Source of the DNA: Arthrobacter terrae
Lineage (GTDB): Bacteria > Actinomycetota > Actinomycetes > Actinomycetales > Micrococcaceae
NCBI RefSeq assembly: GCF_015708085.1
Contig: NZ_JADNYM010000034.1
Location: 1 to 44,509 of the forward strand
DNA length: 44,509 nucleotides
Direction: 5' to 3'
Shown here: one piece after another, positions 29,744 through 38,439 of the stretch
Layout: each line of letters opens with the position of its first letter
How positions within the stretch are numbered: the stretch's first letter is position 1
Notes under the pieces: model-generated
What the model saw: only the letters and a program-made list of their open reading frames with translations
Databases searched by the model: none
What the model was told of the DNA's origin: nothing
Made by a program: the position numbers and the translations under genes

Positions 29744-30361
29744 TCAACGCCAGCCGTGAGAGGTCTTCTCTTTATTCTTTTTCGCCTTAGCCTCGGCCTC
29801 GCGCCATAGCTTTTGCGCCGCCGTCGAGCCCGCAGCGCCGGTCGTGCCCGCAGCGCCGGTTGCGCCCGGACCGGCAATCGCCGGCCCCGCCCGCCACGCA
29901 TGCGTGATTGCCAGGGCCAAAGCGTCGGCCGCGTCAGCGGGAGTAGGGGCGCAGTCAAGGCGCAGGATTTTCGTCACCATCGTGGTCACGGCGGTCTTGT
30001 CTGCGCGGCCGCTGCCGGTGACCGCGGCCTTCACCTCCGACGGCGTATGCAAAGCTACCGGAATGCCTCGGCGCGCCGCGGCCGCAATCACCACTCCGGA
30101 AGCCTGCGCCACGCCCATGACCGTACTGACGTTGAGCTGGGAGAACACGCGTTCAACGGCAAGTACATCCGGTTGGTAGTCGCTGAGCCATTTGTCGATC
30201 GAGTCAGCAATGACAAGCAGACGTGCATCGAGGCTTTTCTCCGGGGTGCTGCCCACCACGCCAAAGGCGACCAGCGTGGCTGTCCGGTTCACAGCGACGT
30301 CAACAACGCCCAGTCCGCACCGGGTCAGGCCCGGATCAACGCCTAGAACGCGCAGCGTCAG
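29744..30361 (-). CDS. ruvC: Holliday junction resolvase RuvC, apparent CTG start
   Basis: Dimeric RNase H-fold endonuclease that resolves Holliday junctions. The first ATG/GTG/TTG in frame would give a protein lacking the catalytic N terminus. Reading upstream restores [19 protein letters not shown] with catalytic D9, and the frame reaches CTG at 30361, which overlaps the yebC stop as CTGA. This gives 205 residues starting MTLRVLGVD. The other acidic residues are in [10 protein letters not shown] and in the [12 protein letters not shown] segment. GGAGGAGGA immediately precedes the CTG. The C terminus is a repeat-derived Gly/Ala/Thr tail plus a Lys-rich end. Upstream of ruvA by 90 bp. Confidence 0.9.
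29828..29863 (-). repeat. 2 x 18-bp tandem repeat in ruvC tail
   Basis: Units 29828-29845 and 29846-29863 share 16 of 18 bases (GCCCGCAGCGCCGGT) and encode the GAAGTT/GATGAA-type tail of RuvC. Confidence 0.75.
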
Positions 30362-31113
30362 TCCTCCTCCAACTCGGCCATGACCTCGGCGCTGACATCG
30401 GCGTTCGAGTAGATGTTCTGCACGTCGTCCAGATCCTCTAACGCATCGTAGAGCTTCATGAATTTACGGGCATGCTCCACATCCAGCTCCACCTGCATGG
30501 AAGGCACAAAGGCTGCATCATCAGTGTCGTAGTCAATGCCTGCCTCGGTCAGGGCCGCGCGGACGGCCGGCAAGTCCTGCGGCTCCGAGATGATTTCAAA
30601 GTTTTCACCGTCATCCTTGACTTCTTCCGCACCGGCGTCCAGGACGGCCAGCAGAACATCATCCTCTAAGAGATCCTTCTTGGGCAGCGAGACCACGCCT
30701 TTGCGGGCAAACATGTACGCCACGGAGCCCGGATCGCCCATGTTTCCGCCGTTGCGTCCCACCACCAGGCGAACCTCAGAGGCAGCGCGGTTCTTATTGT
30801 CCGTCAGACACTCGATCAGAATGGCCGTGCCCTGCGGACCGTAGCCCTCATACATGATGGTCTGATAGTCCACGGCGTCGCCAAGCTGGCCGGAACCACG
30901 CTTAATGGCTCGGTCAATGTTGTCCGCCGGGACGGACGTCTTTTTGGCCTTGGAAACGGCAAGTTCCAGCGACGGATTGCCTACCAGGTCCGCCCCGCCA
31001 ATCCGGGCGGCGACCTCGATGTTCTTGATCAGTTTGGCAAAAGACTTTGCACGGCGGCCGTCAATGACAGCTTTTTTGTGCTTGGTCGTGGCCCATTTGG
31101 AGTGCCCTGACAT
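30358..31113 (-). CDS. YebC/PmpR-family protein
   Basis: 251 residues, standard length. N-terminal signature [22 protein letters not shown], then [20 protein letters not shown] and [22 protein letters not shown]. The family was described as transcriptional regulators (some of ruv genes or quorum sensing); more recent work links YebC proteins to translation of difficult sequences such as proline stretches. Location directly upstream of ruvC, with a 4-bp stop/start overlap, is conserved in actinobacteria. Confidence 0.95.
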
Positions 31114-31116
31114 GCT

Positions 31117-31929
31117 TTACGCTTCTCCTCTAATCATGCGGATGAACAGCTCATGGATGCGGCGCTCCCCCGTCACCTCCGGATGGAAGGAGGTGGCAAG
31201 CAGATGCCGCGACCGCACTGCCACCGCTCTGGTATTACCTTCGATTCTAGCGGTCCGGGTGTTTTCCGGCTGCCCGGAGCCGTTATCCGGCGCAGCTGCG
31301 GCCGCGGGAAGCTGCACGGAGGCGAGCACCTCCACCGAGGCTCCCACGCGTTCCACCCACGGCGCGCGGATGAAAACCGCGTGTACCGGGACGCTGGACC
31401 GGGCATGGTTCGAGGCCTTGGCTTCAACCGGTGCCGCATTGGCCAGGGCTGCAGGAGACAAGGCCCGATCATTGAGGACCGCAGTAGACAAGACCGCATC
31501 GTTGAGGACCGCGAAATCAAGATCCGTTTCGAAGGACTCACGCTGGCGGCCAAAGGCATTGCGCCGCACGGTAATGTCCAGCCCGCCCAAGGTCTGCTGC
31601 GCATTGCCATCCCGGTCCGTAGCCGGATCGGCAATCTCATCGGCCAGCAGAATCATCCCCGCACAGCTGCCGTACACCGGCATTCCGGCGGAGATCCGCT
31701 CTTTCAGCGGCCCGGCAAGGGAAAAGATGCGTGTCAGCTTATCGATCGTGGTGGACTCTCCCCCGGGCAGAATCAGCGCGTCGACGTCGGCCAGCTCGGC
31801 GGCGCGCCGCACACTCACGGCGCGCGCCCCACAGGCCTCGATGGCGCGCGCATGTTCCCGGACGTCCCCCTGCAGCGCCAGGATGCCGACGGTCAGCGGA
31901 CGGTGGATGGGTCTTTCAATAGTCACCAA
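31117..31929 (-). CDS. pdxT: Pyridoxal 5'-phosphate synthase glutaminase subunit PdxT, with insertions
   Basis: Class I glutamine amidotransferase that supplies ammonia to PdxS for direct PLP synthesis. 270 residues, against about 190-240 in relatives. The triad is intact: C89 in [15 protein letters not shown]249 and E251 in SFHPEVTGE; the oxyanion region LPGGEST is at 54-60. Two insertions explain the length: residues about 139-179 (contains the doubled AVLND motif) and about 208-232. It lies 3 bp upstream of yebC. The usual upstream neighbour pdxS is 6.5 kb away, beyond the asnB block. Confidence 0.93.
31458..31517 (-). repeat. 2 x 30-bp tandem duplication in pdxT
   Basis: Units 31458-31487 and 31488-31517 share ATTGAGGACCGC/GTTGAGGACCGC and encode the doubled AVLND segment within a loop of PdxT. 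Ten codons per unit, so the frame is maintained. Confidence 0.8.
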
Positions 31930-32126
31930 AACATCATAATGGTCACCTTTAACGGCATGGGTCCCGTGGGCGGCGTGCGGGACAGCCGACAGGACGGCGG
32001 CACGGGCCCCGCGGCATGGCGTATCCGGACGGACCGCGCCGTCCGCTGCCGGGCCTGAAGGGATGGAGCCGGCCGAGACAGTAGCATTGACCGAGGACTG
32101 ACGTACTAAAGATGAGGTTTAGAAGT

Positions 32127-34829
32127 ATGTGCGGAATCGCCGGTTACTACGGTTTTGGGGAAGACGAAGCTCTTCTGCGGGAGATGAACTCGTGCATAGT
32201 GCACCGCGGTCCCGACGGCGAGGGCTATTACACCCACGGCCAGGTGGGTCTGGCACACCGACGGCTGTCCATCATCGATGTGGCCCACGGCCAGGAGCCG
32301 ATGTTCAGCCAGGACGGTCAAACCGTACTGGTGTATAACGGCGAAGTCTATAACTACCTTGACCTCCGGGATGAGCTCGTTGCCCTGGGCCGGACGTTCC
32401 GCACCGTCTCCGACACCGAGGTAGTGCTGCAGGCCTACGAGGAGTGGGGGGATGCTGCTTTTGACCGTTTCAACGGCATGTTTGGCTTTGCTATCCATGA
32501 CCGCAGGAACAACCGCCTGGTCCTGGCCCGGGACCACTTCGGCATCAAACCACTTTATTACGCCAATGCCGGCACAGCCGAGGACCCCAAGCTGCTGTTC
32601 GGTTCAGAAATCAAACCGCTGCTGGCCGCCGGCAAGCTGGACACCTCCCCCAACGAGCGGATCCTGTTCCGGTACCTGCAGTTCCGCATCCATGATGAGG
32701 AAGCACAGACCTTTTTCTCCGGCGTCTATAAGCTCATGCCCGGAGAAAAACTGGTCGTCGACACCAGCCCGGGTGCGACCAGTGGATTCACCGTCAGTCC
32801 ATACACCCGGTTCAAGGAAGAACTCGCAGAGCTGGCCAAAATCGAGACCCCCTACAGCCCGGCAGTCATCGATGAATACCGTCGCCGTTTCACCGAGGGT
32901 GTCCGGCTTCGGCTGCAGTCCGAGGTCCCCGTCGGCACCGCACTCTCCGGCGGACTGGACTCCTCCGCCGTCGTGGTGACCATCAATAAACTCATGCAGG
33001 AAAACGCAGCCGCCACCGATTCCCTTGGCGCCACGCAGCAGACCTTTTCAGCGATCTTCCCGAACTCAATCAATGACGAGGAAAAGTACGCCGACGCCGT
33101 CCTGGCCACCTGCACCGGGAACGTCACCAGCCATAAGATCCTGCCCAAGGCCGAGGAATTCGCCGTGGATCTTGAAGACTTCGTCCGGACGATGGAAGAG
33201 CCGATCATCTCCTCCGGTCCTTACGCTCAGTACCGCGTCATGCAGGAAGCATCAAAACACGTCACAGTACTGCTGGACGGTCAGGGTGCCGACGAGATGA
33301 TGGCCGGCTATATCCCCTACTACTTCGCCTATCTTCGCCAGCTGAAGAAGAACGGTCAGCGGGCCAAACTGGCCAAGGAGCTGGCCTCCAGCGCAGACAT
33401 TCTCTACCGTCTGGGGCGCTTCCGCCTCCGCGGCATGGTCACTGCGAAAAAGCCGCTGGCCATTTCTTCGCTGCTGAAGAAGGACTTTACGGCCGCGCAC
33501 AAAAGCGAGAGATTCGCTAATATTGCGGACAATCTCAAGCTCCGCCTCATCGACGATCTGTTCCATAAGTCCCTTCCTGCCGTATTGCGCTACGAGGACA
33601 AGAACACGATGCGCTTCTCGATCGAGGGCCGCGTGCCGTTCCTGGACAAAGAGGTGGTGAAATTCCTCTTCAGTCTGGATGACGAGTCCATCATCAAGGG
33701 CGGCTGGAACAAGCGGATCCTGCGCGATGCCACCCGCGACTTACTGCCGGAGATGATCAGCAACCGCCGAAACAAAATCGGTTTCACCACACCGGAGGCG
33801 GAATGGTTCATTCTGATGAAGGAAAAGATCTATGAGATCTTCCTTTCCTCCTCGTTCGGCGCACGCCCTTACTGGGATCAGAACGCCGTGCTGTATGCCT
33901 TCGAGGAATACCTGACGGGCAAGTCCAGTGCGTCCACCATGGTCTTTTGGCGGCTGCTCAACACCGAGCTGTGGCTGCGTGAGTTCTTTGATGAGCCCGA
34001 AGTTAAGGCCGGCATCGCGGACAAGAGCGACTACGCACCGAACGCGGACAAGCAGTTGGATATTACGGTCCCCGCCGCGGGGAAAGGACTGAACGGCAAA
34101 GAGTCCGACGGCGGCACGTACCGCCGCTACCCGCTGCGCACCGAGGTCTTCTACAAGGACACGGACTTTGACCCGGCTGTCATGGGCTATGTCGACCGCT
34201 TTTTCACGGGACTGCCGCAGGCCGGAGACGAGCATACCGCTGTTACGTCGGGAACCCCCTGGTACCTCTTCGTCAGCGAGAAAATCGTCGCCATGACCCA
34301 AGGCCGCTCCATCCCCGTCTGGGACATCAAGGTCACGCCGGCGGCCCGCACCTTGAGCCGCTTTGTGACCCGCAATCCCGGCGGCATCGGGCTTGCCAGC
34401 CCCTGGTCCATGCAGCTCGCCATCGATGAGGTGGGCCTGCCCCGGCTGCTGTACGCTGCCGGCCGCAGCGTGATCGGTAAGCTGCAGGGCAAGTCCGGTG
34501 TCTTCTATGAAGTCGTTGGGCATAACATCAATGCCATTGACGGGGCAGCGGGCTACCAGGTGGGTACTTCCACCCATTCGGTCAAATATGCACCCCTTGA
34601 TCCAGACGGTGTCGCGGCCAGGCTCAGTGCGCTGGTCAGGGAGCGCGTACCCGCAGGATTTGCCACCACCTTCGCGGGCACCGCAATTATGGATGCCAAC
34701 GATCTGGGCGTAGTGGCGCTGGGGCACGACACGGCACTGTCCAAGACCGTCCTTGAAGCCATCTTCAAAGACAACCCGCAGGGCCAGACGACCGAAACCA
34801 CGCCGATGTCCCTGGTCTTTAAGCGATAA
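32127..34829 (+). CDS. asnB: Asparagine synthetase (glutamine-hydrolysing) fused to an F420-0:gamma-glutamyl-ligase-like domain
   Basis: 900 residues from ATG 32127, which places the catalytic Cys at position 2 (MCGIAGYY); a more upstream ATG would bury it. GAGG lies 9 nt upstream. Residues 1-240: class II amidotransferase (HRGPDGEGYY, RLSIIDVAHGQEP, NGEVYNY, DHFGIKPLYY). Residues 245-620: synthetase with the ATP-pyrophosphatase loop SGGLDSS (274-280), DGQGADEMMAGY (384-395) and FSIEGRVPFLD. A linker (625-665) leads to a second domain, 665-900, with WYLFVSEKIVAMTQGR, SRFVTRNPGGIGLASPW, GKLQGKSGVFYEVVG and LDPDGVAARLS. That pattern matches stand-alone proteins annotated as F420-0:gamma-glutamyl ligase. 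Asparagine synthesis from aspartate, glutamine and ATP is inferred for the first part; the role of the second is unknown. A single uninterrupted frame with uniform codon use. Confidence 0.88.
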   Translation: MCGIAGYYGFGEDEALLREMNSCIVHRGPDGEGYYTHGQVGLAHRRLSIIDVAHGQEPMFSQDGQTVLVYNGEVYNYLDLRDELVALGRTFRTVSDTEVVLQAYEEWGDAAFDRFNGMFGFAIHDRRNNRLVLARDHFGIKPLYYANAGTAEDPKLLFGSEIKPLLAAGKLDTSPNERILFRYLQFRIHDEEAQTFFSGVYKLMPGEKLVVDTSPGATSGFTVSPYTRFKEELAELAKIETPYSPAVIDEYRRRFTEGVRLRLQSEVPVGTALSGGLDSSAVVVTINKLMQENAAATDSLGATQQTFSAIFPNSINDEEKYADAVLATCTGNVTSHKILPKAEEFAVDLEDFVRTMEEPIISSGPYAQYRVMQEASKHVTVLLDGQGADEMMAGYIPYYFAYLRQLKKNGQRAKLAKELASSADILYRLGRFRLRGMVTAKKPLAISSLLKKDFTAAHKSERFANIADNLKLRLIDDLFHKSLPAVLRYEDKNTMRFSIEGRVPFLDKEVVKFLFSLDDESIIKGGWNKRILRDATRDLLPEMISNRRNKIGFTTPEAEWFILMKEKIYEIFLSSSFGARPYWDQNAVLYAFEEYLTGKSSASTMVFWRLLNTELWLREFFDEPEVKAGIADKSDYAPNADKQLDITVPAAGKGLNGKESDGGTYRRYPLRTEVFYKDTDFDPAVMGYVDRFFTGLPQAGDEHTAVTSGTPWYLFVSEKIVAMTQGRSIPVWDIKVTPAARTLSRFVTRNPGGIGLASPWSMQLAIDEVGLPRLLYAAGRSVIGKLQGKSGVFYEVVGHNINAIDGAAGYQVGTSTHSVKYAPLDPDGVAARLSALVRERVPAGFATTFAGTAIMDANDLGVVALGHDTALSKTVLEAIFKDNPQGQTTETTPMSLVFKR

Positions 34830-34880: not shown

Positions 34881-36914
34881 ATGACCGTAACTTCCCGGAA
34901 TAATCCGTTCCTTTCCGTCAGCACGCTCCCTTATGGCCTCCCGGACTTCGCCAGCATCACCGATGAAGACTTTCTGCCGGCGTTCGAGGCAGGATTCAGC
35001 GGGCACCTCGCAGAGATCGCCGGCATTAGCTCCACTGCGGAGCCGGCAACGTTCGAGAACACCGTGCTGGCGATGGAACGCTCCGGACAGCTGCTCTCCC
35101 GTGTGGCCGCTGTCTTCTTCAATAACTCCTCCTCGGATGCCACCGCAGAGATCCAGGAGCTGGAAACGGTGGTCTCTCCGAAGTTCGCCGCGCACGCGGA
35201 CAATATCTACCTCGATGCAAGCCTGTACCAGCGTTTTCTGCAGGTGGATACCGAAGGTCTCGACGACGAATCGGTGCGGCTGGTTGAGGAATACCGCAAG
35301 GCGTTCCGGCGCGCCGGCGCCGATCTGGCGCCGGCTGCGCAATCCAGGTCGCGGGAAATTAATGAGGAACTTTCGTCGTTGGGCACCGAGTTTTCGCACG
35401 GCGTCCTGAAGAACACCAATGATGCCGCCCTGCTGGTTCAGGACGCCGCTGAACTCGCGGGCCTGCCGGAGGAAGATATAGCCAGCGCCGCCGAGGCAGC
35501 GAAGACAGCAGGGCATGACAGCGGATACCTGCTCACTCTGATCCTGCCGACCGCTCAGCCCGCCCTGGAATTCCTCACGGACCGGGCAACCCGACGTCGG
35601 CTCTTCGAAGCATCGATTGGCCGCGGCGACGGCGTCGGCTCGGCCGACATCCTGCCCGTTGCCGCCAGAATGGCCGCCCTGCGGGCCGAACGAGCTGCCC
35701 TGCTCGGCTTTGATTCCCATGCCGCTTTCGTCACGGACGATGAGACAGCCCCGTCCCTGGACGCCGTGCAAACCATGCTGGCGCGGCTGGCACCGGCGGC
35801 GGTGGCAAATGCCCGCACGGAAGCGGATGTCCTGACGGGCCTGGCCGAGGCCGGGGGCCACAGCCTGGAACCATGGGACTGGGCCTTCTATTCCGCGCAG
35901 GTCCGACGCGATAAATACGACGTCGATCTAGCCTCCCTTCGACCGTACTTCGAATTCGAACGCGTCCTGCGGGACGGCGTTTTCGCTGCTGCGACCCGGC
36001 TGTACGGCATCACCTTCCAGGAGCGGCCGGACCTGCACGGCTACCATCCGGAAGTCCGCGTCTGGGAGGTCTTCAACGCCGATGGGTCCGGACTTGGATT
36101 GTTTCTGGGCGACTACTACACCCGGGACAGCAAAAACGGCGGTGCCTGGATGAACCCGCTGGTGGAGCAATCCGCTCTGCTCAATCTCCGCTCCGTGGTG
36201 GTGAATAATCTCAATATCTCCAAGCCCCCTGTGGGCGAACCAACCCTGCTGACCTACGACGAGGTGGTGACCTGCTTCCACGAATTCGGCCACGCCCTGC
36301 ACGGTCTCTTCTCCGAAGTAACGTACCCGCGGTTCTCCGGCACCAATGTGCCTCGCGATTTTGTTGAGTACCCCTCCCAGGTCAACGAAATGTGGATCCT
36401 TTGGCCGGAAATCGTGCAGAACTATGCCCGTCACTACCAAAGTGACGAGCCCCTGCCGGCGCGGACAGTGGCGAAGCTCGAAGATGCCCGCCTCTGGGGT
36501 GAAGGGTTCGCGACCACTGAATATCTCGGCGCCGCACTGCTGGATCTCGCCTGGCACAGTCTGCCGCCGGGCTCGCACGTGGCCGATCCGCTGGGCTTTG
36601 AAGCACAGGCGCTCTCCGACGCCGGCGTATCCCTGCGCCTGGTTCCGCCGCGGTACCGGACCGGATATTTCAAACATATCTTTGCCGGTGGATATTCTGC
36701 CGGCTATTACGCCTACATTTGGAGCGAGGTCCTGGACGCGGACACGGTGGAGTGGTTCAAGTCCAACGGCGGTCTGACCCGCAGCAACGGCGACCACTTC
36801 CGTTCCACGCTCCTCGCCCGTGGTAACAGTGCCGATCCGCTGGAGTCCTTTCGGAACTTCCGCGGCAGGGATGCCGCACTGGCGCCCCTGTTGACCCGTC
36901 GCGGGCTTAGCTGA
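34881..36914 (+). CDS. M3-family zinc oligopeptidase (Dcp-like)
   Basis: 677 residues, typical of M3 dipeptidyl carboxypeptidase/oligopeptidase A enzymes. The zinc site is HEFGH at residues 467-471 (CFHEFGHALHGLFSEV), with the third ligand Glu in FVEYPSQVNEMW about 25 residues on. The C-terminal substrate-binding part has YRTGYFKHIFAGGYSAGYYAY. No signal peptide, so it probably degrades short peptides in the cytosol. 51 bp after the asnB fusion gene on the same strand, possibly co-transcribed. The 3' end and stop codon are repeated downstream. Confidence 0.95.
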   Translation: MTVTSRNNPFLSVSTLPYGLPDFASITDEDFLPAFEAGFSGHLAEIAGISSTAEPATFENTVLAMERSGQLLSRVAAVFFNNSSSDATAEIQELETVVSPKFAAHADNIYLDASLYQRFLQVDTEGLDDESVRLVEEYRKAFRRAGADLAPAAQSRSREINEELSSLGTEFSHGVLKNTNDAALLVQDAAELAGLPEEDIASAAEAAKTAGHDSGYLLTLILPTAQPALEFLTDRATRRRLFEASIGRGDGVGSADILPVAARMAALRAERAALLGFDSHAAFVTDDETAPSLDAVQTMLARLAPAAVANARTEADVLTGLAEAGGHSLEPWDWAFYSAQVRRDKYDVDLASLRPYFEFERVLRDGVFAAATRLYGITFQERPDLHGYHPEVRVWEVFNADGSGLGLFLGDYYTRDSKNGGAWMNPLVEQSALLNLRSVVVNNLNISKPPVGEPTLLTYDEVVTCFHEFGHALHGLFSEVTYPRFSGTNVPRDFVEYPSQVNEMWILWPEIVQNYARHYQSDEPLPARTVAKLEDARLWGEGFATTEYLGAALLDLAWHSLPPGSHVADPLGFEAQALSDAGVSLRLVPPRYRTGYFKHIFAGGYSAGYYAYIWSEVLDADTVEWFKSNGGLTRSNGDHFRSTLLARGNSADPLESFRNFRGRDAALAPLLTRRGLS

Positions 36915-37100: not shown

Positions 37101-38360
37101 TCAAGGGTCGCCGCGGCGACGAGCACATCGTCCCGCACGTCCTCCGGCCAGTCGTTCGGGCCGCAGACCGACGCCGATAATCCGCGCCGGAAGCACCTGC
37201 AGCCGAGGGAACGCCCCGAGGAACCGCAGCAGCCGCGGAGCTTTCACGGGCTCGGTGCCGGCCAACATCGGCAGCACCAGGAAGCGCTGCGCGATCCGCT
37301 GCAGCTGCTGGGTTCCAACTGTGGGGAACCAGCGCCGCCGGTGGACCGCAGCAAGAGTCCGGTGCGTCGGCCATCCTTGAGCTGCCCGCCCGGCTGCCAG
37401 CACGCGTGCTGCACAGACCGCGTCCTGAATGGCCAGATTGATACCCACGCCCCCGATCGGAGACATCGCATGAGCTGCGTCCCCAATGAACAATATTCCC
37501 GGCTTCGACCATCTCCTTAACCGGTCCAACCGCACCGTCAGCGTGCTCACATCATCGAAACCTGCCAGCTCCGCCACGTTTCCGGCCAGTTCCGGAATCA
37601 GCTCCGCAACGGACTTCCTTAGTGCTTCAATCCCGGCGGCCCGAACACGTTCATCCCCGCCCTTGGGAATCACATAGGCGATCTGCCAGTAATCGCCTCG
37701 ATCGATCGCCAGCACCACCCGGCCCGGGCCAAAATGCATGTCCAGCCCCTTTTCCGATCCGGCTGCCCGGCCAAGCCGGAACCACAGCACGTCCATCGGA
37801 GCACCATACTCCCGTGGCCGCAGGCCGGCGCACCGGCGCAGCGCTGAATTCCGACCGTCGGCAGCCACCGTCAGTTTGGCGCTCACCTGTACGGCTCCGT
37901 CCGGCCCCCGCGCCCGGACTCCGCGGACAGCTTCGCCGTCTGTCAGTAGGTCAACGGCTTCATGGCTGCGCAGCAACCTGAAGCTGGGAAGCTGCTGGGC
38001 GGCTTGCGCCAAAACGTTCAGGAAGTCCGCTTGTGGCATGAACCGGATGTAGGGATGCGCCGTCCGCAACCGTGAGAAATCCGCCACGCGGTAGGTTCCG
38101 TCGGCAAAGGTGGTGTGCAGCTCTGCGACGTCCCGGTGCGGGACCCGCTCCGTGTCCCCCGCCAGGCCCAGCTGGTCCAACACATCCAAAGTAGACGGGT
38201 GCACCGTATCGCCGCGGAAGTCCCGGATGAAGTCCGGATGTTTTTCCAACACAGTCACGTCCAGCCCTTGGCGCGCCAGCAGCAGGCCAAGCATCATGCC
38301 CGCCGGGCCGCCACCGACAATGCAGACATCCGTTCTGTACTCCGTGACAATACCGTCCAT
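37101..38360 (-). CDS. FAD-dependent oxidoreductase (PHBH/UbiH-type), possibly frameshifted near its C terminus
   Basis: 419 residues from ATG 38360. Rossmann FAD motif VCIVGGGPAGMMLGLLLA at residues 12-29, E of VLEKHP, an RGDTVHPSTLDVLDQLGL segment, and the second FAD motif FIGDAAHAMSPIGGVGINLA. This is the class A aromatic-hydroxylase-like fold. An upstream ATG at 38417 lies inside the pdxS terminator hairpin, so an internal start (38372, 38369 or 38360) is preferred. After GVGLRPE the annotated frame uses rare codons and ends at 37101, while another frame with better third-position GC runs on to a stop at 36986, suggesting an indel near 37150. Substrate unknown. Convergent with the M3 gene. 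Confidence 0.82.
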   Translation of the reverse strand: MDGIVTEYRTDVCIVGGGPAGMMLGLLLARQGLDVTVLEKHPDFIRDFRGDTVHPSTLDVLDQLGLAGDTERVPHRDVAELHTTFADGTYRVADFSRLRTAHPYIRFMPQADFLNVLAQAAQQLPSFRLLRSHEAVDLLTDGEAVRGVRARGPDGAVQVSAKLTVAADGRNSALRRCAGLRPREYGAPMDVLWFRLGRAAGSEKGLDMHFGPGRVVLAIDRGDYWQIAYVIPKGGDERVRAAGIEALRKSVAELIPELAGNVAELAGFDDVSTLTVRLDRLRRWSKPGILFIGDAAHAMSPIGGVGINLAIQDAVCAARVLAAGRAAQGWPTHRTLAAVHRRRWFPTVGTQQLQRIAQRFLVLPMLAGTEPVKAPRLLRFLGAFPRLQVLPARIIGVGLRPERLAGGRAGRCARRRGDP

Positions 38361-38401
38361 GCTGACCATCATGGCCCGCGCGTTGTCCCGCGACAACCAC
38401 G

Positions 38402-38439
38402 CAAACGGGTCCGTCACCCGATGGTGACGGACCCGTTTG
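38402..38439 (-). terminator. Very strong hairpin terminator of pdxS
   Basis: A perfect 17-bp stem (38402-38418 with 38423-38439) and a 4-nt loop (CGAT on the plus strand), 14 bp after the pdxS stop. It continues into TTTG without a long U-run. It must act before the downstream FAD gene. Confidence 0.8.

Follow-up and report, generated by a model that had tools for sequence, protein, structure and literature searches.

A fused AsnB-type and CofE-fold protein of Arthrobacter terrae as a candidate replacement for MurT-GatD

A gene in a 44,509-nucleotide stretch of Arthrobacter terrae DNA (contig NZ_JADNYM010000034.1, genome G000; the whole stretch is referred to as the window) encodes a protein of 900 residues in which an AsnB-type head is joined to a CofE-fold tail (residues 665-900), and this fusion is real. 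The protein probably does the job of MurT-GatD, the amidation of one acid group of the wall precursor, or an alternative to that job. Judged from sequence comparison, it seems fairly likely that the fusion takes the place of MurT-GatD, as a non-orthologous replacement, in the synthesis of peptidoglycan precursor; in this reading the tail would act as carboxylate-activating ligase and the head would amidate or supply ammonia. Coordinates are given in Table 1.

Table 1. Coordinates in the window of the fused gene, its domains and its neighbours
Feature	Position	Strand	Basis or remark
Fused AsnB-type / CofE-like protein, 900 aa	32127..34829	+	Open frame, no stop
N-terminal class II glutamine amidotransferase domain (Cys2, R46, N71-G72-E73, D96)	32127..32627	+	GATase_7/GATase_6
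Asn_synthase domain, SGGLDSS (274-280), DGQGADE (384-390)	32877..33980	+	Pfam, TIGR01536, alignment to 1ct9, AsnB comparison
C-terminal CofE-fold domain (EK..A..QGR, IDG, P.DP, D.ND, DNP.GQ)	34119..34826	+	Conserved core
pdxT, divergent neighbour; marks the place of murT-gatD in relatives	31117..31929	-	SNO domain, synteny
yebC, second marker of the place	30358..31113	-	Synteny
M3 peptidase (Dcp-like), 51 bp downstream of the fusion	34881..36914	+	PF01432, 1.3e-108

The frame of the fusion holds an additional ATG at 32112, upstream of the start used here. Pfam searches of the 900-residue protein matched GATase_7 at residues 44-167 (7.8e-45) and Asn_synthase at residues 251-618 (3.4e-63). A scan of genome contigs yielded 47 loci, one of which (L048) was a contig-edge fragment and was dropped. 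Head and tail were read in a single frame in all 46 readable loci, which confirms the initial annotation of an AsnB joined in one frame to about 235 residues resembling an F420 ligase; a stop between the two domains was looked for in these loci and none of the 46 showed a break. A frameshift or assembly artefact as the source of the fusion was thereby ruled out. In one further genome, G294 (L098, 5976-8722), the head is read in another frame than the tail, which is either genuine or a sequencing error. The full-length predicted structure had a pLDDT of 60.5 and a pTM of 0.41, too low for domain packing to be read.

MurT was scored by one Pfam model, MurT_C (PF08353), which had no match in the window protein or in the G000 genome. 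In a first test MurT_C was missing in 22/23 tail-bearing genomes and present in 4/4 tail-less genomes of family f1. The order-wide samples for tail (single-sequence search) and MurT were taken as the same 297 genomes, with handles G000-G296 in both; 37 carried the tail, 98 carried MurT and none carried both (Fisher 1e-7, uncorrected for kinship). The exclusion held inside families. MurT was found in 0/35 tail-bearing against 9/12 tail-less genomes of f11 (47 genomes) and in 0/5 against 16/19 of f1 (24 genomes); in f17 it was absent from all 7 tail-bearing genomes and present in 15 others. Two f11 genera, g22 and g75, each contain both tail-bearing and MurT-bearing genomes; among the tail-bearing ones, g22 has intact as well as decayed heads, and g75 has decayed heads. 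Outside the order MurT was absent in 19/22 tail-bearing genomes, several of them incomplete assemblies, a figure that proves little, the background rate of MurT having been measured within the order; the distant genomes G335, G403 and G519 hold both a tail homologue and MurT. Some genomes have neither gene, namely G218, G240 and G261 in f1, and MurT was also missing from the tail-less f11 genomes G233, G692 (88% complete) and G695 (74% complete). Six f19 genomes, e.g. G038 and G021, matched MurT_C weakly (27.8-38.3 bits), which suggests a diverged MurT in that family.

The fusion and murT-gatD also occupy the same chromosomal places. Neighbouring genes were called by codon bias and then assigned by Pfam, and representatives of murT, gatD, pdxT, yebC, dapA, dapB, thyX, guaA, lysC and asd were confirmed by Pfam. 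In f1, murT-gatD was divergent from pdxT-yebC in 11/16 MurT genomes, lay beside yebC in the same direction with pdxT not in view in 4/16, and had no marker nearby in one (G071). The fusion adjoined pdxT in 44 of the 46 named loci, the window included, the exceptions being the Tersicoccus loci L025 and L026. In f11 the place is a different one: 22 of 28 loci examined (from 35 genomes) had the fusion between dapB and dapA, the remaining six having dapA only (1), a position after lysC-asd (3) or no marker (2), and of the 8 MurT loci fetched (from 9 genomes), 5 had murT-gatD next to thyX-dapA, with dapB visible in 3. In f17, guaA lay upstream of the fusion in 6/7 genomes and upstream of murT-gatD in 10/15. 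The gene that follows the G150 fusion was found downstream of gatD, convergent, in 15/15 genomes and within 254 bp in 10, although these f17 intervals often hold further genes (9-3970 bp from guaA to murT, 34-4988 bp from gatD to the convergent gene). That the same swap recurs in three families, each time beside different neighbours, argues for equivalent function and would otherwise be hard to explain.

The tail is truly akin to CofE despite a sub-threshold Pfam score. PF01996 gave 15.2 bits on the full window protein and 18.5 bits on the tail alone, below the gathering cut-off of 25, so the expected Pfam match was borne out only weakly in the window protein itself; among homologues, 32/34 matched PF01996 at E 0.01 (best 2.4e-15) and some relatives exceeded the cut-off, e.g. 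G347 at 50.8 bits. A structure predicted for residues 665-900 (pLDDT 78.8) was compared with the PDB by Foldseek, and as proposed from the sequence it resembled CofE: all five significant matches were CofE structures (2g9i, 2phn, 7uld), with E values of 8e-7 to 1e-5 and TM of about 0.5, and the next match had E = 2. The predicted model thus has a CofE fold. Searches of PDB sequences with the tail, by single sequence or by profile, did not find CofE, no NCBIfam family matched the window tail, and TIGR01916 scored nine tail homologues at no more than 34.9 bits against a cut-off of 180.65. Profile-profile comparison with true CofE gave a local match of 27 columns only; in global mode with more homologues the probability was 93.6 and E was 3e-8, with the equivalence of active-site residues approximate. 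By this approximate alignment, K41 and E43 (numbered as in A4, an alignment of true CofEs), invariant in seven true CofEs, are replaced in the tail by a hydrophobic residue and Gln, which leaves catalysis by the tail less than certain. A literature search found no description of the CofE active-site residues.

All 47 loci carry Micrococcaceae genus names except L010 (NZ_JADHDY010000014.1), named Sporosarcina beigongshangi, which is an Arthrobacter-like locus with the same neighbours and 85% tail identity; this record is a mislabelled or contaminated assembly. Within the order the tail occurred in a long frame in families f1, f11 and f17 and as a stand-alone gene in f19, where nine loci showed no AsnB-like gene within the 12.5-16 kb fetched. 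The phylum sample had a tail homologue in 25/396 genomes, fused to an intact AsnB in G335 and G347 (f33) and in G609 (f86), adjacent to yet separate from asnB in G530, and alone in others. Among plasmids the window tail had no match at E 1e-3. Tail homologues joined to other N-terminal regions were seen in L137-L139 (f58, f44), TPR-like in G659 (L137), and G379 holds two tail homologues (L140, L141), one of them adjoining murJ. No paper describing the architecture was found in a search that covered few subscription journals.

The head scored 416 bits against TIGR01536 (cut-off 267.1) and, with Cys2 and SGGLDSS present, is of AsnB type. Its acceptor stretch, EEPIISSGPYAQY, was unlike that of E. 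coli AsnB in an alignment to 1ct9, the sole reference used. In the same alignment the Asp-binding residues of E. coli AsnB, at the positions we take them to occupy, were not kept, SGEGSDE was replaced by DGQGADE, and the segment before the VPFLD motif was longer. One report names only D and R among these Asp-binding residues (PMC8554201). A similar acceptor stretch was common to 11 tail-linked AsnBs (the window, nine fused proteins and the G530 partner); eight of them have DGQGADE, two DGQAGDE and one NGQAGDE. Unfused AsnBs had SGEGADE (G381, G062) or SGQGADE (G041), and five further AsnBs gave no motif match.

In an alignment of 58 fused proteins, made up of the window protein, 49 others and 8 from the 46 named loci, 55 heads were readable; G294 was left out for its different frames, and G687 and G689 for heads cut by a contig edge. 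Cys2, NGE and SGG[LI]DSS were kept in 44/55 heads. Both Cys2 and SGGLDSS were lost in the other 11 (dead heads: G174, G199, G011, G090, G062, G160, G029, G277, G150, G702, G703), with motif placement approximate in the most diverged heads (18-28% identity). The tail motifs were kept across the fused set, the exceptions being G693, whose end is broken, and G255, G335 and G609, which show single changes. A tail tree was built from 64 rows, leaving out G693. The dead-head label, which G687 and G689 also bore there, needed 5 changes on it, and well-supported branches force at least 3 of these; the bootstrap stopped just short of convergence. Estimates of dN/dS by NG86, with several pairs near saturation, ranged in seven dead-head pairs from 0.19 to 0.98 for the head and from 0.04 to 0.25 for the tail; four intact pairs gave 0.13-0.21 and 0.07-0.17. 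Nine dead-head genomes were searched for other AsnBs: seven had none over the cut-off and G062 had two. The sole AsnB over the cut-off in G199 was its own dead head, barely over at 270.6 bits. The tail is the core of the fused protein, and the head decays repeatedly while the tail stays constrained.

CofE is described as activating a carboxylate with GTP as acyl phosphate and then coupling L-glutamate (PMC10861534), and MurT-GatD is thought to activate the D-Glu carboxyl, using ammonia from glutamine (PMC6085368). By analogy, we propose that the tail performs an activation equivalent to that of MurT-GatD. The carboxylate would belong to the precursor and is most likely the D-Glu alpha-carboxyl at position 2 of lipid II; once activated as an acyl phosphate, it would be joined to an amine, either ammonia or, more in the manner of CofE, an amino acid. 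The AsnB-type head would then supply ammonia or amidate the new end group, a step that would be dispensable and that may have been lost several times. A second, separate amidation by the head is favoured over mere ammonia supply because intact heads keep both glutaminase and synthetase motifs and dead heads lost both. Tentatively, the protein might be a two-step enzyme whose tail ligates Gly or Ala to the D-Glu alpha-carboxyl of the stem peptide and whose head amidates the new carboxyl. If so, the product would be glycinamide or D-alaninamide substituents on the wall, and lineages with dead heads would carry the amino acid unamidated. Such substituents were reportedly seen in early chemical studies of the walls of Arthrobacter (A. 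atrocyaneus). This species is now Sinomonas atrocyanea, and the fusion is present in two of its genomes (L043, L045). Our literature search for such amides of glycine or alanine in the walls of Arthrobacter found no report.

It is doubtful that the head serves as the housekeeping asparagine synthetase, with the tail added on for regulation or oligomerisation. The TIGR01536 score and the intact catalytic motifs of the window head agree with such a role, as does the fact that the head is the only AsnB over the cut-off in its genome; the stretch that forms the Asp site in E. coli is lost, however, repeated decay hits the head and not the tail, and in f19 the tail occurs by itself. AsnRS exceeded its cut-off in 2/31 genomes, G000 not among them (the score in G083 was 230 bits against 342.6), so transamidation can provide the Asn-tRNA, and 7/8 tail-less f1 genomes tested had no AsnB over the cut-off. 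Asparagine supply is not the point of the fusion. An unlikely alternative keeps the wall as the site of action and lets the head alone replace MurT-GatD by AsnB-type amidation of D-Glu, the tail having another role. AsnB-type enzymes elsewhere are described as amidating mDAP of peptidoglycan precursors (PMC8554201), but MurT was missing in the dead-head genomes too (11/11), and the dead-head genomes G199 and G011 retain the gene between dapB and dapA.

The CofE fold of the tail would also fit an enzyme that makes gamma-glutamyl tails on F420 or folate. CofD exceeded its cut-off in 15/46 tail-bearing genomes, and a chlamydial CofE homologue was predicted and tested as a substitute for FolC (PMC1971073). 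Against this, 31/46 genomes, including G000, had no CofD over the cut-off, and some of the f11 matches were weak; F420-type genomes and f11 genomes with weak CofD matches mostly showed a separate, strong PF01996 protein. G000 had neither CofD nor, at E 0.001, any PF01996 match in the genome, which leaves it without a true CofE, and FolC was over its cut-off in all 23 genomes tested, G000 among them. An F420 role for the fusion is unlikely, a gamma-glutamyl role on F420 or folate for the tail highly improbable, and this role was rejected. The initial annotation had suggested an enzyme that forms amides in a product such as a cell-wall component or a cofactor-like compound: the wall half agrees with the place of MurT-GatD and the exclusion of MurT, whereas the cofactor half is not supported, given the missing CofD and true CofE and the presence of FolC.

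As a putative replacement of MurT-GatD, the fusion works like that system without being a member of it. Both have an amide-forming part and a glutaminase part, share a chromosomal place in three families and occur mutually exclusively in the order; the fusion differs in having a CofE fold in place of MurT, with no Mur-ligase fold, and a class II (N-terminal Cys) amidotransferase/AsnB in place of the class I GatD. With CofE / FbiB (PF01996, TIGR01916) the tail shares the fold, the SEKIVA..QGR and P.DPD stretches and an Asp after the DPD helix. It differs in falling below curated cut-offs in the window protein, in its middle region, in occurring without F420 and, as aligned, in having a shorter C-terminal side; the part missing there may be the F420-binding hairpin of CofE. 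The head resembles the mDAP-amidating AsnBs (Listeria, B. subtilis AsnB, LtsA) in domain order, in glutaminase and PPi-loop motifs and, by description, in not keeping the E. coli Asp-site stretch, and the fusion differs from them by the extra C-terminal CofE-like domain. QimC of the Streptococcus pyogenes qim operon is described as similar to F420-0:gamma-glutamyl ligase and as belonging to a cell-surface operon (PMC13059722); it resembles the tail by this description.

MurT-GatD is described as universally present in Actinobacteria (PMC6085368). Tail-bearing genomes of several genera lack MurT and have an unrelated enzyme at the chromosomal place of MurT-GatD, and the fusion is a candidate for an unrecognised route of D-Glu carboxyl modification. 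A role is thereby offered for proteins matched by asparagine-synthase and F420-ligase models alone, and the decay of the AsnB-type head beside a retained partner tail constitutes a natural experiment.

The M3 peptidase downstream of the fusion had been taken as a pointer to a peptide substrate. It starts within 1.3 kb of the fusion in 30/46 loci and is also found near murT-gatD in 4/16 tail-less relatives (G024, G085, G207, G290), so that it was rejected as a specific partner. Between the M3 peptidase and pdxS, positions 37101-38417 of the window hold a gene that by eye is FAD monooxygenase-like and was matched in 3/46 loci.

Other links with wall genes were seen, some of which may be due to chance. 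In G403 a MurT-GatD protein is encoded about 285 bp upstream of the separate tail homologue. Among 15 distant loci (L128, L131-L144), 5 had murJ near a tail homologue: adjacent in L140, L142 and L143, at 1.1 kb in L139 and at 2.1 kb in L137. In G530, asnB and the tail gene form an unfused pair flanked by yggT and divIVA, with sepF nearby, and an alanine racemase gene was found near the f19 tail gene in the one locus checked.
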